Source: Mongoliibacter ruber (GTDB lineage Bacteria > Bacteroidota > Bacteroidia > Cytophagales > Cyclobacteriaceae). Taken from it: 64,000 bases of DNA. Both the position numbers and the translations under genes were made by a program. The notes beneath the pieces are model-generated. The model was given only the letters and a program-made list of their open reading frames with translations, made no database searches and was not told where the DNA came from. This document shows positions 16,967-28,356 of this stretch, piece after piece (position 1 is the stretch's first letter; every line of letters begins with the position of its first letter). The stretch is from NCBI RefSeq assembly GCF_003003005.1, contig NZ_PVTR01000002.1, forward strand, positions 334,831 to 398,830, given 5' to 3'.

Positions 16967-17461
16967 ATGCCCAAAAAGTCTAAGCCCATAGTAATAAAAT
17001 CTTATCCGGAACCAAAAATCAAGGTACCCAGATTTTCGGAGGAAGCAGGGTTTTATACCACCAAGCAGCGCTCTTTCAATATGGCCAGGGTCAAGGGCAA
17101 AGACACCAAACCCGAAAAACTGCTCAAAAAAGCCCTTTGGCATGCCGGTGTAAGGTATCGAAGCAACAAGCAAAAACTCCCTGGAAAGCCTGACATCAGC
17201 CTGATCAAATACAAGTTGGTGATTTTTGTAGATGGGGCATTCTGGCATGGATATGACTGGGAAAACCGCAAATCCACCATCAAATCCAACCAGGATTTCT
17301 GGATTCCAAAGATCGAGCGCAACATGCAAAGAGACCGGGAAATCAACCACTACTACCGATCCAAAGGCTGGACAGTACTTCGGTTTTGGGATTTTGAGGT
17401 GAAGCAGGAGTTGGGGAGCTGTGTGAAGAGGGTGGTGGATGTATTGGTTTTGTCCATATAA
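16967..17461 (+). CDS. Very-short-patch-repair (Vsr-type) endonuclease
   Basis: 164 residues. The core FNMARVKGKDTKPEKLLKKA, LPGKPDISL, VIFVDGAFWHGYDW and the C-terminal RDREINHYYRSKGWTVLRFW follow the Vsr/DUF559 fold. Asp76 in GKPD corresponds to the catalytic Asp of E. coli Vsr, and FWHG His95 to one of its catalytic histidines. The first His of the E. coli pair is Asp here (VDG rather than THG), and the zinc-binding Cys after FWH is absent. Vsr nicks T:G mismatches produced when 5-methylcytosine deaminates. That fits the HpaII-type C5 methyltransferase 7 kb away, though the two are now separated by other genes. A ~35-residue basic extension precedes the domain. Confidence 0.82.
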   Translation: MPKKSKPIVIKSYPEPKIKVPRFSEEAGFYTTKQRSFNMARVKGKDTKPEKLLKKALWHAGVRYRSNKQKLPGKPDISLIKYKLVIFVDGAFWHGYDWENRKSTIKSNQDFWIPKIERNMQRDREINHYYRSKGWTVLRFWDFEVKQELGSCVKRVVDVLVLSI

Positions 17462-17851: not shown

Positions 17852-19195
17852 ATGTCAAACAAGCAGCTCAACAGAAGAAATTTCCTTTCGCAGACCATCG
17901 CACTTACAGGTGCAGGTTTACTTTCTCCTACTTTTGGATTTGCCGACAGTAACAGCCACAGGCATCCAAACCATCCACTTTCCAAAATCACTTTTAAAAA
18001 TGTAAAGCTGGAAACTGGCTTTATCAGGGATGAGGTCGAAGTCATTGCCACAGAAACCAAGCTTTTCCTGGTAGTGGTGGAAAATGGAAAAATCACTGAA
18101 ATTCTTCCGAATAATTCTGCGGCTGATGCCATTGACGCCCAAGGCTATTTGATGTTGCCCGCTATGAAGGACATGCACATCCACTTGGACAAAACCTATT
18201 ACAGCGGACCATGGAAGGCAAGGGAAAGTAAATTCCGAACTGTCAAAGAGCTGATCGAACATGAAAAGGAGGTAATTCCCACACTTTTGCCCCATTCAAC
18301 GGAGCGGGCCAAAAAACTGGTTGAACTGCTGCATTCCCAAGGAACCGATTTCGCCAGAAGCCATGTCAACATAGAGCCTACCTCTAAGTTGGATTCTTTG
18401 AAAAATCTCCAAAAAGCCTTGGAGGCCAAAGAAGCTGGTTTTGGGGCGGAACTGGTAGCATTTCCCCAGCATGGCGTATTTTACTCAGGTTCGCAGGAAC
18501 TGATGCGTGAAGCAGCAGGCATGGGCATAGACTTTATTGGTGGAGTGGATCCCTATTCTATAGATGGCCAAATTGAAAAGACGATGGACTTTACCGTACA
18601 ATTGGCATTGGATTATCATAAAGGCCTAGATATCCACTTACATGAAACGGGAGAATCCGGTCTGAAAACAGTGCAGTATTTGATCGATAAGGTAAATGAA
18701 AACCCAAGCTTGAAGGGGAAGACTTATTTAAGTCATTGCTTTATATTGGGAGCCGTGGATAGCAAAACACTTGAAGCTACCTGTGAAGCCCTTGCAGAAG
18801 CGCAGATAGGAATCACCACCACGGTACCAATAGGTTACAATGTGATGCCCATACCCAAGCTGTTGGAGCATGGCATTCCTGTAATGGCAGGTACAGACTG
18901 TGTGACAGACCACTGGCAGCCATTCGGGACCGGCAGCATGTTGGATAAAGCCAAGACCATGGCTGAGTTGTATCGATACAACCATGAATTTGGATTGTCA
19001 CGCTGTCTGGGCATAGGCACCAAGGGAGTTACGCCATTGGATAATGAAGGAAAACAAGTCTGGCCCAAGGTGGGGGATGAAGCCAGTTTTAACTTGATTG
19101 CTGCCTCCTGTTCTGCTGAAGCCGTGGCCAGGTTATCCCCGGTAAAGCAATTGTACCATAAAGGCAATTTGGTTTTTGAAAGCGGAGGTTGCTAG
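17852..19195 (+). CDS. CodA-like metal-dependent amidohydrolase with Tat-type leader
   Basis: 447 residues. The start MSNKQLNRRNFLSQTIALTG is a twin-arginine-type export signal. The catalytic part follows the cytosine-deaminase branch of the amidohydrolase superfamily: MKDMHIHLDKTYY (HxH metal site), FARSHVNIEP, VAFPQHGV, LDIHLHETGESG, YLSHCFILG and AGTDCVTDHWQPFGTG (metal Asp). It would hydrolyse a cyclic amide or amidine; cytosine itself is not certain, since these paralogs vary in substrate. Export to the periplasm is unusual for a cytosine deaminase. The gene lies between an intact vsr and a decayed vsr fragment. Confidence 0.82.
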   Translation: MSNKQLNRRNFLSQTIALTGAGLLSPTFGFADSNSHRHPNHPLSKITFKNVKLETGFIRDEVEVIATETKLFLVVVENGKITEILPNNSAADAIDAQGYLMLPAMKDMHIHLDKTYYSGPWKARESKFRTVKELIEHEKEVIPTLLPHSTERAKKLVELLHSQGTDFARSHVNIEPTSKLDSLKNLQKALEAKEAGFGAELVAFPQHGVFYSGSQELMREAAGMGIDFIGGVDPYSIDGQIEKTMDFTVQLALDYHKGLDIHLHETGESGLKTVQYLIDKVNENPSLKGKTYLSHCFILGAVDSKTLEATCEALAEAQIGITTTVPIGYNVMPIPKLLEHGIPVMAGTDCVTDHWQPFGTGSMLDKAKTMAELYRYNHEFGLSRCLGIGTKGVTPLDNEGKQVWPKVGDEASFNLIAASCSAEAVARLSPVKQLYHKGNLVFESGGC

Positions 19196-19218
19196 TGGGA
19201 AAGGGTTTTTTTGCTGTG

Positions 19219-19325
19219 AAGATTGAGCGCAATAGGCAAAGAGACCGGTAGATCAACCATTGCTAGCGATCCAAAGGTTGGACAGTGTTGAGGTTTTGGG
19301 GAGCTGTGTGAAGCGGGTTGTGGAT
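19219..19325 (+). pseudogene. Decayed fragment of the 3' end of a vsr gene
   Basis: The sequence closely matches 17309-17440, the last third of the intact vsr (KIERN..RDR, RSKGWTVLRFW), but has in-frame stops after RDR and after NHC and lacks about 25 bases between two TTGGG(G) repeats. It is therefore a partial second copy, oriented like the intact one, on the far side of the amidohydrolase. Confidence 0.85.
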
Positions 19326-19493: not shown

Positions 19494-19721
19494 ATGACGA
19501 ATATCGAATCTTTAGAAAAGAGGATAGCCTTAGCAGATGAAATAAGAAAAATTAGAAAAGCGAATAAGCTTTCACAAATGGAATTGGCTGAAAAAATGGG
19601 AATTGCTAGATCTACAATTTCAAAAATTGAAAACGGGGAATTTGCTTTCAGTGTAGATTATTTGATCAAACTAGCTGATCACCTAAATTTTAAAATCAAA
19701 CTTGAAAAAAATGAAACTTGA
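19494..19721 (+). CDS. XRE-family HTH transcriptional regulator
   Basis: 75 residues made almost entirely of a Cro/C1-type helix-turn-helix: EIRKIRKANKLSQMELAEKM followed by GIARSTISKIENGEFAFSVD. Such small regulators commonly control toxin-antitoxin, phage or restriction loci. It overlaps the next small gene by 11 bases (ATGAAACTTGA), implying translational coupling. An upstream palindrome is a candidate operator. Codon use and base composition are AT-rich like the R-M operon downstream. Confidence 0.85.
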   Translation: MTNIESLEKRIALADEIRKIRKANKLSQMELAEKMGIARSTISKIENGEFAFSVDYLIKLADHLNFKIKLEKNET

Positions 19722-19929
19722 TTTATGGTTCAGAAGATTCCTTGATTTACCAGAAAATGAATTGAAGGAAAGCATTCATCAACTTTCAAGAGATGAAATA
19801 ATCAATTGGCTATGCTGGAATGACAAAAATGGAATATATCGCGACAAAGACTCTCTTGCCGAATTTGGAAACATGATGACATTGGAAGAAGGTAGAGAAA
19901 TTATGATAAGACAGATTTTACAAGGATAA
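19711..19929 (+). CDS. Hypothetical 72-residue protein coupled to XRE regulator
   Basis: Starts MKLDLWFRRFLDLPENELKE inside the last codons of the XRE gene; another ATG nine bases upstream is possible. The short acidic helical protein has no recognised domain. The segment QLSRDEIINWLCWNDKNGIY is distinctive. The overlapping arrangement with an HTH gene resembles a toxin-antitoxin or regulator/partner pair, but nothing in the sequence names a toxin fold. Confidence 0.6.
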   Translation: MKLDLWFRRFLDLPENELKESIHQLSRDEIINWLCWNDKNGIYRDKDSLAEFGNMMTLEEGREIMIRQILQG

Positions 19930-19953
19930 ATTTCAAAAATCAAATCAAAACCT

Positions 19954-20328
19954 ATGGACAATCTAATTCAAAAAATAGAAACAATTTGTAAGATAGATCA
20001 TGAAAATGAAGAAATCATGGTTTTCGAAAAGACAATTATTGATCTTTTTTCATTTGTAGGAGAAGGTATTTACGATTTCCAGACAGAAAGCCATATAAAG
20101 CCATTTTGGTATGGCACGTCCTATTCTAAAGAATGGCATAATGAGGTAAAATTAAGGTTTGATGAAGAGGCTTGGGCTGGAATATTTTTATCAAAGTGGA
20201 CTAAGGCTGAGGAAATATTGGAGAATATAAAAGAGCAGAATATTGGACTAGAAGATTATGTAATTAACCCATCTCAAAATTGGATACAATTGGAATTTGA
20301 TGTTAAGTATCAGATGGGGATTTATTAA
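19954..20328 (+). CDS. Hypothetical 124-residue protein
   Basis: Soluble, acidic protein starting MDNLIQKIETICKIDHENEE, with a Trp/Tyr-rich middle (HIKPFWYGTSYSKEWHNEVK). No signal peptide or membrane segment and no family recognised. It follows the two small genes by 24 bases on the same strand and so probably belongs to that unit. It may be an immunity- or antitoxin-like protein, but that is speculation. Confidence 0.55.
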   Translation: MDNLIQKIETICKIDHENEEIMVFEKTIIDLFSFVGEGIYDFQTESHIKPFWYGTSYSKEWHNEVKLRFDEEAWAGIFLSKWTKAEEILENIKEQNIGLEDYVINPSQNWIQLEFDVKYQMGIY

Positions 20329-20360
20329 ATATCATCAACCCCCATTTTCAATTTTTTTTC

Positions 20361-20528
20361 CTCAAAAAAGAAAAAGGCCTGTCCCAAGAAGAACTGGCCG
20401 AAAGGTCCGGATTAAACAGACCCTATATCTCAGGAATAGAACAGGGGAAGAGAAATGTATCGTTGGAGGTGATGGAGAAGTTGGCGGGGGCGCTGGGGGT
20501 AGGGATTGGGGAGTTGGTGGATTTTTAA
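20361..20528 (+). pseudogene. 5'-truncated XRE HTH regulator remnant
   Basis: The frame LKKEKGLSQEELAERSGLNR continuing PYISGIEQGKRNVSLEVMEK and ending LAGALGVGIGELVDF is a clear Cro/C1 HTH with its natural C-terminus. There is no start codon and the first ~15-20 residues are absent. The sequence resembles controller-type (C-protein) HTHs of R-M systems. It lies just past the 3' end of the R-M operon in convergent orientation. Upstream it runs into the tail of the preceding small gene. Confidence 0.7.
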
Positions 20529-20559
20529 AATAAATTTTGACAATAAGAAATGTTTGATT

Positions 20560-20943
20560 TTAAATATTGGGAAAAATAAACTCTTTTATTCTATCTTCCA
20601 CAGAAGCTCTGTTTGTTACGTATACATTTCGCATACTTCCAATCAAATTATTCAGATCTACATTTTGGTCTTGAGAGTAAAAGAGAATCGGAATGTTATC
20701 TAAATGTTCCTCCTCCCTGATTTGTGCGATATATTTATCACCGTTAAATGGTTCCATATGATAATCCATCACAATTAAATCAAAAGGATACATCATAAAT
20801 ATTTGTTCTAAATCCTCACCATTTAATTGAGGTAAAACAACTAAATTGATATCGTATTTTGTCGCAAGGATAGATAAGTTACTTGTAACTATATGCGACC
20901 AATTCTGCATATCGTCAATCCAAAGAATAAATTTGTGTCTCAT
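20560..20943 (-). CDS. Stand-alone response-regulator receiver domain
   Basis: 127 residues, a single CheY-like REC fold with no output domain. Acidic pocket Asp10-Asp11 (WIDD), phospho-acceptor Asp60 (LIVMDYHM) and Ser90 at the switch position (ILFYSQD) are present. The conserved Lys after beta-5 is replaced (VTNRAS, Asn111-Arg112), which usually alters phosphorylation chemistry. Its start overlaps the stop of the GHKL gene by four bases (ATGA), so the two are co-translated and presumably partners. It is the last gene of the four-gene restriction operon. Confidence 0.82.
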   Translation of the reverse strand: MRHKFILWIDDMQNWSHIVTSNLSILATKYDINLVVLPQLNGEDLEQIFMMYPFDLIVMDYHMEPFNGDKYIAQIREEEHLDNIPILFYSQDQNVDLNNLIGSMRNVYVTNRASVEDRIKEFIFPNI

Positions 20944-23183
20944 ATTATTATTTTAAATGTTATACCATTATCTGAATTATTTTGAACATCAATATTTCCC
21001 TTTAAGTTACTTACAATTTGTTTAACGTGATAAAGACCTAATCCTGAACCATCTGTTGTTGTATACCCAAAGTCAAAAATACGCTTGATGTCTTTCGGAT
21101 TAATTCCTATTCCATTGTCTTTAAACTCAAAAATTAATTTACCCATATATTCAGTTAAACTAATTAATAACCTATCTGACTTAGCTTTCCTTGAGTTAAC
21201 TACAAGATTATCAATAAGAATATTGATTTCTATAGGTTTGAATTTTTTTACAATTTCGTTCTTGACATTGTTTTCAAATACGATTTCTAAACTTTTATTA
21301 TTAACAGAAGGTAAGATATTAGAAATATATTCTGCAAGATAGTTGACAATGTCTACTTCTAATTCTTCTGTTTTTAGTCGGAAATTAGCTTTGGTAGCAA
21401 ATTCTGAGATGTTTTGGATTTTATTGGCTTCAAAGCTTATTGACCTAATTATCTCTATTAAATCATCTCTTGTGATTTCAATATTTCTGCTGAGTTTTAA
21501 GGAGATGTTTTTTAAATAAGAATTAATTGTCTGTGCATAAATTCCTGCATGATGCATAAAACTTAAAAGATCATCAAAATCTTGTGAACGAACAGATTTT
21601 AAAAAAAGATTTTGGGTTTCTTTTTCTTTAATTTCCTTTTCTTTCTCTTTTATCTCTTCTTCTGCTATTTCAGCAATAATTAATGCATCATCCAGAGTAG
21701 ATTTTACTTTCTTAATTTTTGAGATTAATTCCTTATTATCTGTTTCTCTCGCAATATTTTCAATTGATTTTATTAGCGTTAAAGCATTTTCATTTTCATT
21801 TTGTGTATCTGTTAAAAGTGATATTAAATTTGAATTGAAATCAAAAGTAACATCTTCATCAGAGTTTTTAATCTTTAAAAGAGACCTGATTATTTTGATT
21901 TCTAAATTCTCAATGTCTGAATAACCCTTTGTATCAATTCCATACTTGTAAATACTTAACCAAAATGATTCAAGCTTTTCAACTACATCAATAAAGTAGT
22001 CTAATAATTGATGGTAGGCTTGGTTCTTTATTAAACCACCATCTCTACTTGTTGTCTCTTTAAAATCTTCATTCTCACCAATTATTTCTATTCTACCAAT
22101 TAATTGTTGGGTACCAAGTCTGTCTCCAATACGAGACTGTTGTCTTTTATCAAGTTCAAAAGGGTCGGCTCCTGGTTCTCCATAAGGGTAAACTCTTATC
22201 CCGTTTTTATACAAGAAAACCGAACCATATTCAGTATTTCTAATCCCCATTGTTCTGGTAAAATTATTCTTGGCACTTCTATTTAAGTAGAACAATTCCA
22301 CAAACAGATTATTTAGTAAAGGGTAGTTTTCATTATTTATTAATATTGAAAATAGCCATATTCCATTATTTGTAATTTCTGTCTTAATTTGCTTTCCATT
22401 TTGTGCGATTTCGGAGCGTATCTTAATTGTTTTTTCATTAAGAATATTTAATAAATTATTTGTGACTAGCCCATTGACCTTTCTGTTTGGAGCTTCTTGT
22501 TTTTGATCTAAATCAAGATATTCTTCAGCATTAATTTTTATTTCAAAAATTCTTTCTTCATTATTTTCAAAAGGATTGATTAGTTTTGATAAAGAATTTT
22601 TTAAACGTATAAGTTTTTCATAAGACCATTCCGAATCTGGTCTGATACCCGAAATCTCCAACAATGTACCGGAACTAAATATCAATGGGTTTTCATGTAA
22701 TGTAGTATGACTAACCCCAATATTGATAAATTCATCTTTCGTATCTTGTTCAAAATTATCCCAATCAACTTGGATTTGTTCTGTTTTAGAGTTCTTTTCA
22801 TCTTTTGTTGTTATCAAAAGAAGCTTTGAACCTAATTTATCACAAGAAAAACGACCAATCCCTTTTGCTCCTGCATAAAAAGTTTTACTCTGTATTCTAT
22901 TTCTGTAGTCAATATCTTCGGTTCCATCTTTTTTTGCTGAATAAGCTACAAATAGCCACTTATTTAATAGGTCGTCATAATTCATCCCCTTACCATTATC
23001 GGTAATTCTTATTATGGCGTTAGATGTATTTATTTTTTCAAATTCAATTAAAACTTTTGTCGCATGAGCATCATATGAATTCTTAACAAGCTCAAAAATT
23101 GCAATGAAATCATCAGTAATTAAGTCTCGCCCAATTATATTCTTTAATCCCGAACTTATTCTAAATTGTAACTGATTTTCCAT
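20940..23183 (-). CDS. Double-GHKL protein: MORC/MutL-like ATPase N-terminus fused to histidine-kinase-like C-terminus
   Basis: 747 residues with two GHKL ATP-binding modules. The first has N-box ELVKNSYDAH (31-40), DNGKGM (62-67) and GAKGIGRFS (105-113), as in the MutL/MORC/Hsp90 group. The second has an N-box with Asn659/Asn663, DNGIGI (689-694) and GSGLGL (712-717), as in sensor kinases. Between them lie a Glu/Lys-rich coiled coil (about 500-530) and LLSFMHHAGIYAQTINSYLK, where His544/His545 could be a phospho-acceptor in a DHp-like helix pair. There is no membrane segment. The start overlaps the restriction gene stop (TAATG) and the end overlaps the receiver gene. Bacterial MutL/MORC-like ATPases in R-M neighbourhoods were described by Iyer, Abhiman and Aravind (2008, from memory). 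Function here is inferred. Confidence 0.82.
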   Translation of the reverse strand: MENQLQFRISSGLKNIIGRDLITDDFIAIFELVKNSYDAHATKVLIEFEKINTSNAIIRITDNGKGMNYDDLLNKWLFVAYSAKKDGTEDIDYRNRIQSKTFYAGAKGIGRFSCDKLGSKLLLITTKDEKNSKTEQIQVDWDNFEQDTKDEFINIGVSHTTLHENPLIFSSGTLLEISGIRPDSEWSYEKLIRLKNSLSKLINPFENNEERIFEIKINAEEYLDLDQKQEAPNRKVNGLVTNNLLNILNEKTIKIRSEIAQNGKQIKTEITNNGIWLFSILINNENYPLLNNLFVELFYLNRSAKNNFTRTMGIRNTEYGSVFLYKNGIRVYPYGEPGADPFELDKRQQSRIGDRLGTQQLIGRIEIIGENEDFKETTSRDGGLIKNQAYHQLLDYFIDVVEKLESFWLSIYKYGIDTKGYSDIENLEIKIIRSLLKIKNSDEDVTFDFNSNLISLLTDTQNENENALTLIKSIENIARETDNKELISKIKKVKSTLDDALIIAEIAEEEIKEKEKEIKEKETQNLFLKSVRSQDFDDLLSFMHHAGIYAQTINSYLKNISLKLSRNIEITRDDLIEIIRSISFEANKIQNISEFATKANFRLKTEELEVDIVNYLAEYISNILPSVNNKSLEIVFENNVKNEIVKKFKPIEINILIDNLVVNSRKAKSDRLLISLTEYMGKLIFEFKDNGIGINPKDIKRIFDFGYTTTDGSGLGLYHVKQIVSNLKGNIDVQNNSDNGITFKIII

Positions 23184-24262
23184 TATCTTAAAAACCTGAT
23201 TTGTAAATTTAATTTAAACAATATTTTTTCACCTTCTCTATATAGAATGCCAAAATCATGTCTGGTACTACTTGCTGTTTCAAGCTTTGTATTATTTAAC
23301 AAATAATCTTCAAATTCATTTCTATTATAAATGTGGTAACAAAGGACTTCGCCATCATCTTTGACGACTAAATATCCGCCTGTGGAATCCAATTGACCTG
23401 TCCACACTTTTGACGGCATCATTCCAAGAGCAACATCAGTTAAAAAACGTTTGATTTTATATGAATAGAATGGGTGTTTTGTTTCTGTATTAAATCCAAG
23501 TGGATTAATTTTTGAAACTTCATTTACCAAATCCAAAGTTTTTGAAAGCCCCGAAGTAAAGAAAAGATAAACTATTTCGGAAAGAATAATTGGCAATCCA
23601 CTATCAATCAATGTTAAGTTGTTACCGAAGACAGAGCTTTCAGTTTCAATAAAAACCAGTGAACCAAAAATCTCCTTAATCTTTTCGATTCTATCTTTTA
23701 TTTTACTTCTAGTATTAATACTGTTTACAGCTTCAATTTGGGCTTCAGATAAATCAACATTTTCTACTTGGTAAATAAAATTTGTAGTTCTGCCAGCATT
23801 TAATAGTGTTGAAGCATTTCCAAGTTGAGACTTTATGCTGAATCCCAGTTCAGGCATAGTACCTGTTCTTTGGTCGTGTATAACTATTCGAATATCACTT
23901 TTTACGGAGGATTTTGCTTTTAAAGAAAGGCAACTAAATGAATTTATAAAAGTCTCAATCTCAGGAATGGAAAATGTTGAAGAAGTTGTTTCTTTTAACT
24001 TGGAGAGTAAATAGAAGGCTTTCTCTTGAAATTCTATTAAAGGAATTCTAAATTCCTCATTAGCACCTCTAATTATCACCAAATCACGTTCATAACCATA
24101 TTCATATGTTCCGTTTGATTCGTCACGTAAAATTTTAATGATAGGAAAAATAAGGCTTTCAATCTTTTTTAAGTTGCTGTCCCCAGCAAAGAGATTCTTA
24201 TCCGATATAATTTTCAAAAGAGTGTAAATTTCACTCCACTCACCTTTATTTCCTGTTAGCAT
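23183..24262 (-). CDS. HpaII-family type II restriction endonuclease
   Basis: 359 residues, the length I recall for R.HpaII. The start MLTGNKGEWSEIYTLLKIIS and the central HDQRTGTMPELGFSIKSQLG followed by NASTLLNAGRTTNF match the HpaII restriction family (RE_HpaII). The PD-(D/E)XK-type centre plausibly uses Asp123 or Asp130, Glu138 and Lys144 (ELGFSIK). It would cut unmethylated CCGG. The gene overlaps the methyltransferase by 17 bases and the GHKL gene by one base, so translation is coupled and expression tied to the modifying enzyme. No frameshift is seen, so it is probably active. Confidence 0.85.
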   Translation of the reverse strand: MLTGNKGEWSEIYTLLKIISDKNLFAGDSNLKKIESLIFPIIKILRDESNGTYEYGYERDLVIIRGANEEFRIPLIEFQEKAFYLLSKLKETTSSTFSIPEIETFINSFSCLSLKAKSSVKSDIRIVIHDQRTGTMPELGFSIKSQLGNASTLLNAGRTTNFIYQVENVDLSEAQIEAVNSINTRSKIKDRIEKIKEIFGSLVFIETESSVFGNNLTLIDSGLPIILSEIVYLFFTSGLSKTLDLVNEVSKINPLGFNTETKHPFYSYKIKRFLTDVALGMMPSKVWTGQLDSTGGYLVVKDDGEVLCYHIYNRNEFEDYLLNNTKLETASSTRHDFGILYREGEKILFKLNLQIRFLR

Positions 24263-25517
24263 AAATTAATAATTTATCTATTATTTCTTTAGCCGTTGCC
24301 CTAATTGCGGGCACTGCAACGGAATTTCCAAATTGCTTGTATGCCGAGGCATCTGCTACAGGAATTAAAAATTCATCAGGAAAACCTTGCAATCTGGCCC
24401 ATTCCCGAGGTGTCATTTTTCTGATGCCTTCTCTATTTACTTCTCCTTTAATGTGGGTAACAGGAGTAAAATCTTCCAACCTGTCATCATAGACAAGGTT
24501 TCTCTCTCTTCCCATTCCACCGCAGACTACCGCATTAGCAGTGCCATCATCTGGAATGATCTCATATCCAAATCCATTTCCCTTTGATAAATGTCTGTTT
24601 TTATGCTCCTTCAAAGTTTTAAGGTATTGAGTAGAAAGAAAATATTTAACAGAAACAGGTTCTACTTCCTTAACATCTTCAAAAGCAACTACCTTATCTA
24701 AGGGTTCGGGGTATTCAAAATGATCAATACCTAAATCACTTCTAAATCCTACTATAAAAATTCTTTCTCTATTTTGAGGAACTCCAAAATCTCGAGCATT
24801 CATTATTTGAGGTTCAGGAACATAATAACCCAAATCTTGCCTCAAGACATTTAGAATTGTGGCTAATGTCCTTCCTTTATCATGATTTCTTAAACCTTTC
24901 ACATTTTCAAGAAAGAAAGCTTTTGGTTTTTTTCTTTTAATTATTTCGGCGACATCAAAAAATAAAGTTCCTCTTGTATCTTCAAAACCTCCCCTTCTTC
25001 CTGCAATAGAAAATGCCTGACAGGGAAATCCTGCACATAAAACTTCAAAGCCATCAGGTATGAATTGCTTAGTTTCTTCTTTTGTAATATCTCCAAAAGG
25101 CACCTCTCCAAAATTTGCAAAATATGTCTTTTTAGCTTGCTCATCCCATTCACTTGAAAAGACACACTTTCCTCCAAGGCTTTGCATAGCTAATCGAAAA
25201 CCTCCAATTCCTGCAAAGAGGTCAATAAATCTGAATTGAGTATTCCCTTCCGGTTCTGCAAAAGTGGCTTCATTTCCGAATAAGGAATATTGGACAGCTT
25301 CTTCCGCTACTTCCCAGGAAAATTTTTCACCATGGACAATTTCAGAATATTCTTTATAGAACTTTACTGCTTCATTCTTAAACAACTGTTTGTCTAAATC
25401 ATTAGACTGTAAATAATGAGTGAAGGCTGCTTTGCCAATGGCACCATTTTCAGCCTCATTTAACTTCATTTTTTTACCGAACACGTCATCAATTTCAAAC
25501 TTCCTTTCTAATTCCAT
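24246..25517 (-). CDS. HpaII-type DNA (cytosine-5) methyltransferase
   Basis: 423 residues. All main C5-MTase motifs are present: I (FIDLFAGIGGFR, ~98-108), IV with catalytic Cys166 (AGFPCQAFS), VI (FFLENVKGL), VIII (QNRERIFIVGF), IX (REWARLQGFP) and X (QFGNSVAVPAI). The target-recognition region FLSTQYLKTLKEHK...KGNGFGYEIIPDDG...GGMGRERNLV is very close to what I remember of M.HpaII, so CCGG (inner C) is the likely target. About 90 residues precede motif I, a longer extension than in M.HpaII. It is the first gene of the operon, with a palindrome and a -7-like box about 60-100 bases upstream. Confidence 0.93.
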   Translation of the reverse strand: MELERKFEIDDVFGKKMKLNEAENGAIGKAAFTHYLQSNDLDKQLFKNEAVKFYKEYSEIVHGEKFSWEVAEEAVQYSLFGNEATFAEPEGNTQFRFIDLFAGIGGFRLAMQSLGGKCVFSSEWDEQAKKTYFANFGEVPFGDITKEETKQFIPDGFEVLCAGFPCQAFSIAGRRGGFEDTRGTLFFDVAEIIKRKKPKAFFLENVKGLRNHDKGRTLATILNVLRQDLGYYVPEPQIMNARDFGVPQNRERIFIVGFRSDLGIDHFEYPEPLDKVVAFEDVKEVEPVSVKYFLSTQYLKTLKEHKNRHLSKGNGFGYEIIPDDGTANAVVCGGMGRERNLVYDDRLEDFTPVTHIKGEVNREGIRKMTPREWARLQGFPDEFLIPVADASAYKQFGNSVAVPAIRATAKEIIDKLLIYANRK

Positions 25518-25577
25518 ATTGGCAAATACTCTGAATTTATAACTAGACTAATAATTGACCAAGTGAGTCTTACTTCT

Positions 25578-25585
25578 CAAAATTA
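25578..25585 (-). promoter_or_regulatory. Predicted -7 box of the R-M operon
   Basis: On the minus strand this reads TAATTTTG, a full match to the Bacteroidota TAnnTTTG element, about 60 bases upstream of the methyltransferase ATG. The adjacent palindrome would cover the -33 position. Confidence 0.5.
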
Positions 25586-25594
25586 AACCAGGTC

Positions 25595-25614
25595 TTGTAG
25601 ACTATAGTCTACAA
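25595..25614. promoter_or_regulatory. 20-bp perfect palindrome, C-box-like operator
   Basis: TTGTAGACTATAGTCTACAA is fully self-complementary. Its core GACT-AT-AGTC resembles R-M controller-protein boxes (GACT-N3-AGTC) with one base less in the centre. It lies nine bases upstream of the predicted -7 box of the methyltransferase. Confidence 0.6.
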
Positions 25615-26937: not shown

Positions 26938-28356
26938 ATGGACAAGTCCAATCCTCGGCATCGCCTAAAGTTCCGTAACCCTGGAGTATATGTAGAAGAG
27001 GTGTCTTTGCAACCTAAATCCATTGCTGAGGCGGAAACAGCAATTCCCGTTTTTATCGGTTATACCCAACTGAGTGAAGGAAAAGCAGGTGCCGATTTGA
27101 AGGGTGTGCCTCAATTCATTTCATCCGTTCAGGAATATGTAGATTTTTTTGGTACTGCCGGTAAGGAACAAGGGCTGTCGCTGAAAATCACCCAATCCCC
27201 AGGCGGAGCGGAATCCATTCAGGCACAGGTTAGCAATCCTCATGCATGTTTGCTTTACTATAGCATTCAGGCCTTTTTCGCGAATGGAGGGAGTAAATGT
27301 TTTGTGATTTCTGTGGGAAATTCGGGCCAAAAGCCTCAATTGCGAGATTACATGGCTGGGTTTCTCGAGAGCAAAAAAGAAGCACGAATTACCATACTTT
27401 GCTTCCCGGATGTCGTTGGGCTTTTGGAGGAAAGTGATTATTACCAGCTGATGGGGGAAGCCATGTTGCAATGCCATAAGTTGAGAAACCGGTTTTTGCT
27501 GGTAGACCTGCACAGTCCGGAGGCCGATAATTTGCAGACCTTGGACCGGTTTAGAAATTTAATGACCCAAACTGAGGGAAGGCAATTTTCCACAGCTTAC
27601 TACCCTTATATAAACAGTCAGTTGGACTATTCCTTCCAGCCAGAAGATGTGCTTGTCCACCTTTTGGGAAATAAAGGCCACAACCGCCCACAAACTATTA
27701 ACCTGTTGGCCCTGAGGAGGCAAAATGAATCCAAATTCAATGATTGTATTGCAGTAATCAGGAAAACGCTCAGGCCTGTACTTCCTCCCTCACCTTATGT
27801 GGCCGGAGTATATGCGAGAGTAGATAGGCAAAGGGGGGTTTGGAAAGCTCCAGCCAATGTCGTGCTAAAGGCTGCGCAGGGTTTGACAGCAAATGTAAAT
27901 AATCAAGAACAAGCACGCTTCAATGTAGATTCGATCGGAGGAAAATCTGTCAATGTAATTAGGGAGTTTCCAGGCAGGGGGATTTTGGTATGGGGAGCCC
28001 GTACCTTGGCAGGCAATGACAATGAATGGCGCTACGTGCCGGTTAGGCGATTGTTCATCATGATAGAGAGCTCCGTGAAAGCGGAGTTAAAAAAAATGGT
28101 TTTGGAACCAAATGATACCAATACTTGGATTAAAGTCCGATCTATGACGGAAAACTTCCTTCAAGAATTATGGAGAAAAGGAGCGCTTTTCGGGATGAAA
28201 TCAGAAGAGGCATTTTTTGTAAGAATCGGTTTAGGCCAAACCATGACCACTCAGGATATCATAGATGGTAAGATGATTATGGAATTAGGTTTGTCTGCCA
28301 TCAGGCCTTCTGAGTTTTTGGTACTAAGGATTACCCAAAACATGAAAGCAACCTGA
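26938..28356 (+). CDS. Contractile phage-tail sheath family protein, orphan
   Basis: 472 residues. The start RLKFRNPGVYVEEVSLQPKS and the C-terminal GRGILVWGARTLAGNDNEWR, YVPVRRLFIMIESSVKAEL, FLQELWRKGALFG and the closing ELGLSAIRPSEFLVLRITQN are typical of tail-sheath proteins of phages and extracellular contractile injection systems. The sheath contracts around an inner tube to drive it through a membrane. Here no tube, baseplate, spike or ATPase gene is adjacent; the next genes are small lipoproteins. The frame is intact. It could be a detached paralog of a system elsewhere in the genome or a degenerate remnant of a locus. Confidence 0.88.
   Translation: MDKSNPRHRLKFRNPGVYVEEVSLQPKSIAEAETAIPVFIGYTQLSEGKAGADLKGVPQFISSVQEYVDFFGTAGKEQGLSLKITQSPGGAESIQAQVSNPHACLLYYSIQAFFANGGSKCFVISVGNSGQKPQLRDYMAGFLESKKEARITILCFPDVVGLLEESDYYQLMGEAMLQCHKLRNRFLLVDLHSPEADNLQTLDRFRNLMTQTEGRQFSTAYYPYINSQLDYSFQPEDVLVHLLGNKGHNRPQTINLLALRRQNESKFNDCIAVIRKTLRPVLPPSPYVAGVYARVDRQRGVWKAPANVVLKAAQGLTANVNNQEQARFNVDSIGGKSVNVIREFPGRGILVWGARTLAGNDNEWRYVPVRRLFIMIESSVKAELKKMVLEPNDTNTWIKVRSMTENFLQELWRKGALFGMKSEEAFFVRIGLGQTMTTQDIIDGKMIMELGLSAIRPSEFLVLRITQNMKAT

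Follow-up and report, generated by a model that had tools for sequence, protein, structure and literature searches.

We analyzed a 64,000-nucleotide stretch of the Mongoliibacter ruber genome (hereafter, the window), the minus strand of which carries an HpaII-type restriction-modification (R-M) system joined to a protein with two GHKL modules and to a small receiver. The four genes, designated M (C5-cytosine methyltransferase), R (HpaII-family restriction endonuclease), HK (the double-GHKL, histidine kinase-like protein) and REC (the receiver), may represent an HpaII R-M operon with a captured cytosolic two-component module, in which a kinase sensing the state of the DNA or of the R-M system would signal to REC and the outputs would be exchangeable. 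As a whole, this reading is in our judgment evenly poised between right and wrong, and its parts differ in strength. Judged from sequence, it is highly probable that HK and REC work as a two-component-like module linked to the R-M system, and rather likely that a real His-Asp relay connects them, whereas an action of REC on R is a tentative proposal with somewhat less than even prospects.

The M-R-HK-REC operon and its predicted proteins

The operon proper occupies positions 20560-25517, a narrower span than the 19494-25614 described in an earlier, sequence-only reading of this DNA, and the overlaps claimed there for the four successive minus-strand genes (17, 1 and 4 bases) were found to be exact. 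The first gene is M (25517-24246, minus strand, as are all features of the operon given below), encoding a C5-cytosine DNA methyltransferase of 423 amino acids (aa) that matches PF00145 with 335.7 bits and is called MTase_II by PADLOC. It directly adjoins the endonuclease gene R (24262-23183; 359 aa), with which it shares the 17 bases. The R protein matches PF09561 RE_HpaII with 462.1 bits (cut-off 25) and covers this model fully, from position 1 to 359; no convincing relative of R was found in PDB. That the four genes form one operon, as stated in the sequence-only reading, is supported, and the same gene order was observed in five other genomes. Because it is conserved in these additional genomes, the arrangement is not due to chance. 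Promoter and terminator scans of the locus gave results near chance level. The genes had further been placed in an AT-rich island, and indeed the five 5-kb stretches of lowest GC content in the window begin at 18-22 kb, with a GC content of 0.312-0.343 compared with a median of 0.400 for 5-kb stretches of the window.

The start of HK (23183-20940; 747 aa) shares 1 base with the stop codon of R (TAATG). Its product combines a predicted N-terminal MutL/MORC-type GHKL ATPase with a predicted C-terminal DHp-CA histidine-kinase module: residues 27-156 (22716..23105), which include Glu31 of the GHKL fold, match HATPase_c_3 (PF13589, 89.9 bits), and residues 652-745 (20949..21230) match HATPase_c, the CA domain (PF02518, 83.5 bits). 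In an alignment of 57 HKs (43 from genomes and 14 from viral contigs), the GHKL residues E31, N35, D62, G64, G66, G105, G108 and G110 were each present in 57/57 sequences. His544 (21552..21554), the putative phospho-acceptor, was likewise invariant (57/57), and the CA motifs were kept in nearly all proteins (N663, G714 and G716 in 57/57, D689 in 56/57). His544 lies within helix 535-565 of the AlphaFold model of HK and was aligned by phmmer with the His of the SHELR motif in HK853, which we take to be the phospho-acceptor of that kinase. Foldseek searches with the HK model matched HK853-RR468 complexes, EnvZ, MutL and Grp94, the parts of HK being assigned to these matches from lengths and sequence matches; against a 40-kDa MutL fragment, approximately 430 columns were aligned with a template-modeling (TM) score of 0.57-0.58 by target, for a model whose own predicted TM score (pTM) is 0.53. 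This match might reflect an S5-type second domain behind the GHKL fold. The domain matches and conserved residues show a predicted MutL/MORC-like N-terminal half, in the position of a sensor, joined to a predicted DHp-CA kinase half. The MutL/MORC-like ATPase proposed in the sequence-only reading was thus recovered, both by PF13589 and by the invariant GHKL residues.

The region of HK that is most specific to HpaII-linked proteins is the linker at residues 461-545 (21549..21803). With five divergent rows left out of the comparison, its mean identity was 60% within the six HpaII-linked HKs and 26% to 32 others, and it is a candidate site of contact with R or M. The last gene, REC (20943-20560; 127 aa), overlaps HK by 4 bases (ATGA) and encodes a stand-alone receiver that matches PF00072 with 31.0 bits versus a cut-off of 30.2. 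Asp60 (20764..20766), the putative phosphorylated residue, was conserved in 43/43 RECs, as were S/T90 and D/E10, and D11 was found in 33/43.

Recurrence, cassette exchange and HEPN-like receivers

A scan of GTDB contigs for HK yielded 42 loci. The complete M-R-HK-REC order with an HpaII-family R was present in five other Bacteroidota genomes from two families: Flagellimonas aequoris (locus L083; HK 84% identical to that of the window), Aequorivita sp. UBA3180 (69%), Algoriphagus alkaliphilus (60%), and Flavobacterium sp. AED and sp. AS60 (52%). In each of the six HpaII loci, HK and R share 1 or 4 bases. For counting, we considered 44 HK loci, i.e., those scoring >250 bits to the window HK after duplicates were dropped; remoter relatives (in L053-L062 and L071-L082) were mapped and kept outside this count. 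A C5-methylase was located within 6 kb of HK in 44/44 loci. The gene directly upstream of HK was M in 36/44 and R in 6/44, the remaining two being without assignment, and the joint to the upstream gene was at most 11 bases in 43/44, the exception being one of these two. Thus, the neighborhood search proposed earlier as a check on linkage to R-M genes had a positive outcome, with a C5-methylase in every locus and 42/44 loci adjoining M or R within 11 bases. Two distant types of C5-methylase accompany the HK family, and the HpaII-type M scores only approximately 40-100 bits with the other type.

Between the window and F. aequoris, the proportion of synonymous differences (pS) was 0.78 for M, 0.74 for R and 0.66 for REC (four-gene range 0.66-0.78), and the proportion of nonsynonymous differences (pN) was 0.18 for M, 0.11 for R, 0.09 for HK and 0.10 for REC; Ka/Ks was dropped in favor of these values because synonymous sites were saturated. 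This pattern of substitutions shows that all four genes are kept together under purifying selection, with HK and REC the best kept. HK-like matches were also seen in 137 plasmid and 12 phage records, all with <60% identity, and one match in each set covered 80% of the query. Among 15 HK relatives from viral contigs, 11 were accompanied by a long REC (see below), and no HpaII R was seen near any of the 15. No REC adjoined HK in the viral loci L170, L171 and L175, and two small genes were found instead in L173.

Comparison of the window HK with that of locus L114 revealed 65-96% identity in each of the six segments before residue 521 and 37-42% from that residue onward; on a finer scale, the lasting fall in identity occurred at residue 546, so that the breakpoint of this tail exchange lies beside His544. 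REC of the window was 18% identical to that of L114, 51% to those of L085, L086 and L110, and 45% to that of L116. We then compared trees of the two HK parts and of REC, from which eight divergent or long-branch rows were left out. In the tree of HK residues 1-540, the six HpaII loci were united (100/100), and a grouping of the window and L083 with the clade of R-less loci was rejected (p 2e-84). In the tree of residues 546-747, the window and L083 grouped with the R-less clade (100/98), and the six as one clade were rejected (p 0.0003). The REC tree also placed the window and L083 with the R-less clade (100/99). Because the trees of HK residues 546-747 and of REC are concordant, it follows that the kinase half and the receiver moved together and that the sensor half stayed with the R-M genes. 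Such a joint exchange fits a kinase-receiver specificity unit, that is, two parts that would have to match in a relay.

RECs of related loci are often larger than that of the window. Of the 43 genome RECs, 30 were long (283-337 aa), 11 were short and 2 were of intermediate length; all R-linked RECs were short (6/6), and 30/37 RECs from loci without R bear a second, HEPN-like part. The pattern R[ND]xx[AGM]H was present in the second domain of 41/41 long RECs (30 from genomes and 11 from viral contigs) versus 0.3% of shuffles, although it was fitted after viewing the alignment, and the 41/41 count describes the family rather than tests it. In a modeled long REC, this motif (R249-H254) is located at the end of helix 241-253, and HEPN RNases have such a motif (Rx4-6H) at the end of the third helix, as described in the available text of PMC3710099. 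Pfam matches of long RECs to HEPN families were all weak (PF18731 HEPN_Swt1 in 6/27, PF18735 HEPN_RiboL-PSP in 3/27 and PF18737 in 1/27), and unrelated families were also weakly matched at similar E-values, by one or two members each. The viral long REC of L178 had DUF4145 and HepT-like matches, both under the cut-off. Foldseek and VIA-align searches with the REC-HEPN model matched the receiver part alone, with PorX first; a PDB profile search with the C-terminal part of a long REC gave nothing convincing, and PADLOC had no match for the window REC or for two REC-HEPN proteins. Taking motif, its position and the weak profile matches together, the second domain of these long RECs can be described as HEPN-like and is probably an RNase.

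The fusion of a receiver with a HEPN-like domain, exemplified by L091 (9321-10235) and 40 other long RECs, is encoded beside a double-GHKL kinase gene, usually behind a C5-methylase, and also occurs in IMG/VR viral contigs. These proteins form a probable abortive-type defense family, and we found no description of such a family in the open-access PMC literature. In L115, a short REC from a locus without R is followed by a separate open reading frame (ORF) that holds the remainder of the long form. An HNH gene like that of L045 was located close by in 4/44 HK loci (L044, L087, L096 and L097).

Flanking region and variant loci

On the plus strand, 3' of REC, the window contains an XRE-type helix-turn-helix (HTH) gene (19494-19721) and small ORFs, up to position 20530, and positions 20360-20528 are 91% identical to 8632-8800 of L201, a relative from the same family. 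In a genome of the same family (G731), AbiEi/AbiEii, Fic, DUF1016 and AIPR genes follow the homolog of window gene 17852-19195, which we read as an amidohydrolase gene. Judged from this one flank, the locus looks like a defense hotspot. An empty site could not be read in G730, a genome of the same genus, whose contigs stop close to each of the two borders. A full Vsr gene and Vsr-like fragments lie around the defense genes, both in the window (19218-19325 and 16967-17461) and in the same-family genome (L201 3131-3283, 5184-5663 and 6945-7124); they may mark recombination points of the hotspot. Next to the island, positions 26938-28356 encode a 472-aa protein, presumably a contractile-tail sheath, which has further relatives in the same genome.

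A perfect 20-base-pair palindrome, TTGTAGACTATAGTCTACAA, is located at 25595-25614 (no strand), 78-97 bases upstream of M. No other perfect palindrome without a gap and with arms of ≥10 bases exists in the window, where none was expected. A search of the 5-Mb genome that allowed up to 2 mismatches gave no second copy, and in 20 related loci the palindrome was not found within 250 bases 5' of M; at this place, L070 has a GACT-AGTC element and L153 a different inverted repeat. The palindrome may be an operator of this particular locus. Its core, GACT-AT-AGTC, is in our assumption C-box-like. Small HTH genes occur directly before M in four other HpaII loci (L111, L070, L155 and L158). The XRE gene of the window is a candidate for a C protein acting on the palindrome; however, it sits 3' of REC and on the opposite strand.

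Several variant loci were also met. A second, separate HpaII/GHKL neighborhood is present in the viral contig L183 (1-7094), where C5-methylase and HpaII are fused in one protein of 698 aa. This contig also encodes two additional C5-methylases and a double-GHKL protein of another kind (691 aa), and it has a gene with weak likeness to REC that is truncated by the locus end. In L058 (3284-8271), genes for an N6-type methylase, a metallo-beta-lactamase-fold protein, a double-GHKL protein and a 218-223-aa protein stand in a row, and similar clusters are present in L055 and L075 (Pfam was checked in L058). In L048, L050, L051 and L173, HK relatives are followed by two small genes (~230-240 and 217-240 aa) in place of REC-HEPN; Pfam yielded nothing convincing for the small genes of L048 and L050 and a sub-threshold Response_reg match for the first one of L173. 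In the HpaII R-M system of L155 (1616-4942), R is split into two frames and is separated from M by an HNH-type gene, and the small HTH gene mentioned above precedes M.

Related systems, alternative explanations and proposed mechanism

Kinases that combine HATPase_c_3, DHp and HATPase_c and stand with response regulator (RR)-like genes beside C5-methylases were described by Bellieny-Rabelo in 2021 (PMC8011034). According to the available text of that study, 644 regions containing RR-like genes were analyzed, and in 91.6% of these a GHKL gene was no more than three genes away. C5-methylases (often upstream), HNH_2 and Vsr were found around the RR-like genes, 174/222 HEF_HK proteins had both GHKL domains, and the study speculates that such pairs control R-M systems. 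The pair in the window resembles these HEF_HK/Response_reg_2 pairs in its soluble HATPase_c_3-DHp-HATPase_c protein, adjoining RR gene and C5-methylase. Thus, the combination is not undescribed, as both architecture and R-M context were already predicted there; the narrower statement in the sequence-only reading, that it had not been described experimentally, stands to the extent that we found no experimental study in the open-access PMC literature. By Pfam, membership in the HEF_HK/Response_reg_2 families was rejected: PF19191 had no match at E 10 in the window HK and none in its own genome, and PF19192 had no match at E 10 in the window REC, which matches PF00072 instead, and none in its own genome. 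PF19191 was matched in 5/30 genomes searched, in open frames other than the HK relatives of this subfamily. Since HK and REC miss both models, they are a sister variant of the HEF_HK/Response_reg_2 pairs. The main text of PMC8011034 never names HpaII, and the available text does not describe a type II R captured between M and the kinase, HEPN on an RR, or cassette exchange; conserved HpaII capture, the HEPN-like output of the cousins and the exchange at the His are the additions made here, and the invariance of His544 is likewise new.

Other systems share single parts with this operon. ParaMORC GHKL ATPases have, in the available text of Iyer, Abhiman and Aravind (2008, PMC2292703), an N-terminal GHKL domain followed by an S5-type domain and linkage to R-M, cytosine methylase and Vsr genes; however, they carry nuclease, TIR or other tails, often with helicase genes, and no histidine-kinase half or REC is described there. 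The BbrUII/HgiDII restriction enzymes (NF050001 and PDLC03419) have an N-terminal GHKL region in common with HK (65.9 and 39 bits), but these matches span only HK residues 29-221 and 16-128 and do not approach the NCBIfam cut-off of 550 bits. PrrC/PrrI and paraMORC-Ymh fusions, as presented in the available text of PMC3710099, tie a HEPN RNase to R-M and an ATPase sensor and in this respect resemble the cousins of our operon; unlike in PrrC/PrrI, the HEPN-like domain of the cousins is placed on the receiver of a kinase pair, and the window REC is without it. A fusion of a Schlafen RNase with a minimal histidine kinase in bacteriophage exclusion (BREX) loci (PMC12839542) also brings a kinase module and an RNase together in methylation-based defense, but it is a single fused protein with another RNase family, and the available text of that report makes no mention of a receiver or MORC. 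HpaII-type R-M systems themselves have the same M and R families, in some cases accompanied by Vsr and by a small HTH gene, and most of them are without HK and REC.

The following mechanism may be proposed. The N-terminal GHKL clamp would bind DNA, or R and M proteins on DNA, and would close on ATP at a wrong modification state, such as unmodified or cut DNA or a stalled R-M complex. Closure would switch on the DHp-CA half, His544 would be phosphorylated and the phosphate would then pass to Asp60 of REC. Phosphorylated REC, which is here without an output domain of its own, would dock on a partner, most likely R (or R with M), and release or restrain cleavage. Since the REC of most cousins without R has its own HEPN-like domain, these systems would in general be built as a single sensor-relay to which different nucleases can be attached as outputs.

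Several observations weigh against this proposal and should be set out together with the status of the pair among HpaII systems. PF09561 was detected in 11/395 phylum genomes (10 over the cut-off) and in 20/395 class genomes, that is, in 26 genomes with five common to both sets. When the 25 neighborhoods other than the window (that of L041 being only 2.5 kb) were searched by tblastn with HK and REC, 24 were without either, and in the remaining one, G182, a full-length R is followed by an HK stub of 71 codons. R itself was found again by tblastn in 21/25; in the other four, its Pfam match is weak or partial. As several of the 24 hold a broken or partial R, a cleaner count is that of loci in which a full-length R adjoins M and which were retrieved by a route other than HK; of these, 12/13 had no pair and one had the stub. 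HK and REC are therefore excluded as a standard part of HpaII systems: a comparison of HpaII loci with and without the pair, as suggested in the sequence-only reading, showed that it recurs in six, whereas in most the HpaII R-M genes are kept without it. A tree was built from 19 M+R pairs, omitting six rows in which R was short, three that had no M nearby, and L067 and L165, in which the gene caller gave no R. HK-bearing loci were scattered on this tree, with 6 label changes, a number not lower than that obtained with shuffled labels; well-supported branches forced at least 4 changes, and F. aequoris, which has HK, was sister to G196, which does not (99/98). The HKs of the six HpaII loci are nevertheless united in a single clade (100 with the full-length protein, 100/100 with residues 1-540), and from this it follows that one HpaII-adapted HK lineage was lost by some HpaII systems, was transferred between them, or both. 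The window REC is closest to the short RECs of the R-less loci L085, L086, L110 and L116; taken by itself, the REC tree gives no firm rejection of a single clade for the six (p 0.054); and, since the kinase half and REC are adjacent, one recombination could have carried both without selection for matching.

The scattering on the M+R tree, together with the hotspot-like setting, would suit the idea that HK and REC are a passenger, two unrelated defense genes that chance to sit downstream of R. We give this explanation hardly any credence, and in its pure form it is largely refuted by the five further conserved operons, the stop-start overlaps and the strong purifying selection; a single HpaII-specific HK clade with its own linker also speaks against it. 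A different doubt concerns the chemistry of the relay. His544 is followed by His or Gln in 52/57 HKs and by Asp in 1/57, whereas an acidic residue stands at this place in the HisKA type; no Pfam HisKA-type or HEF_HK model matches HK; the HK model is of moderate quality (predicted local distance difference test score 75.3, pTM 0.53); and the usual beta-5 Lys is not conserved in RECs, being Asn in that of the window. It is conceivable, if quite improbable, that REC is a pseudo-receiver and HK an ATP-driven clamp, the pair having a structural role in which no phosphate is transferred, in line with what has been proposed for paraMORC-type R-M ATPases. The missing Lys, the lack of an acid after His544 in 56/57 HKs, a PF00072 score barely over the cut-off and a weak, sub-threshold iREC match in the L085 REC would agree with such an action, but His544 (57/57) and Asp60 (43/43) are invariant in otherwise fast-evolving domains and the CA motifs are retained in nearly all HKs. 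The phospho-relay suggested in the sequence-only reading is thus backed by a His at the HK853 position, HATPase_c and the REC Asp, and is weakened by the absent Lys and acid. The relay machinery appears to be kept with these two departures from the textbook form, and a canonical His-Asp relay is likely, though not assured.

The main gap in the idea that R replaces HEPN is provided by short-REC loci without R. L085, L086, L110 and L116 have M-HK-short REC with neither an adjoining R nor a HEPN-like part, and a scan of ten genes flanking them yielded one HhH-GPD base-excision-repair gene, one AbiEii and no restriction endonuclease (a Vsr gene is present in L110). The existence of this sister clade means that the output need not be R, and it weakens the suggestion of the sequence-only reading that the pair may license, time or inhibit cleavage. 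It is possible, then, that the pair serves the methylase, with HK-REC tuning or sensing methylation (the activity of M, or hemimethylated DNA) and nucleases added later; this reading arises because M is the only universal neighbor of the pair (a C5-methylase in 44/44 HK loci, an HpaII R in 6), and the four loci just named agree with it. We consider it improbable, since two distant C5-methylase types go with the family and a HEPN-like part is found on REC in 30/37 loci without R. The same four loci, the persistence of R-M systems without the pair and the HEPN-RNase-type motif in all long RECs of the cousins are also consistent with a second line of defense, in which an HK-REC alarm watches the R-M system or its DNA and, upon R-M failure, triggers a separate growth arrest, in HpaII loci through an unlinked partner or HK itself. 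This alternative is unlikely but deserves attention; it is disfavored by the absence of any effector except R inside the operons of the HpaII clade and by the overlap of HK with R in 6/6 of them.

Type II restriction enzymes are taught as autonomous, consisting of M and R and nothing else. If the proposed coupling of HK-REC to R-M is true, cleavage or a back-up response would be switchable by a phospho-signal that reports the state of the DNA, and bacteria may, as suggested by the recurrence of the pair beside DNA methylases in other bacteria with different likely outputs, wire the sensing of DNA modification into phospho-signaling. The operon would also provide a compact case for the general 2021 prediction of kinase-like GHKL proteins near R-M genes, with a known endonuclease type, named conserved residues (Glu31 and His544 of HK, Asp60 of REC), natural variants that lack the pair, and cousins with a likely RNase output. 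More broadly, though with confidence that falls a little short of even, these loci may belong to a widespread and modular defense class, in which a MORC/MutL-like clamp would read the DNA-modification state and pass it through a His-Asp phosphorelay to swappable nuclease outputs (mostly a receiver-fused HEPN-type RNase, HNH in some, and a captured HpaII R-M system here), with the kinase half and receiver exchanged as a cassette at the His.

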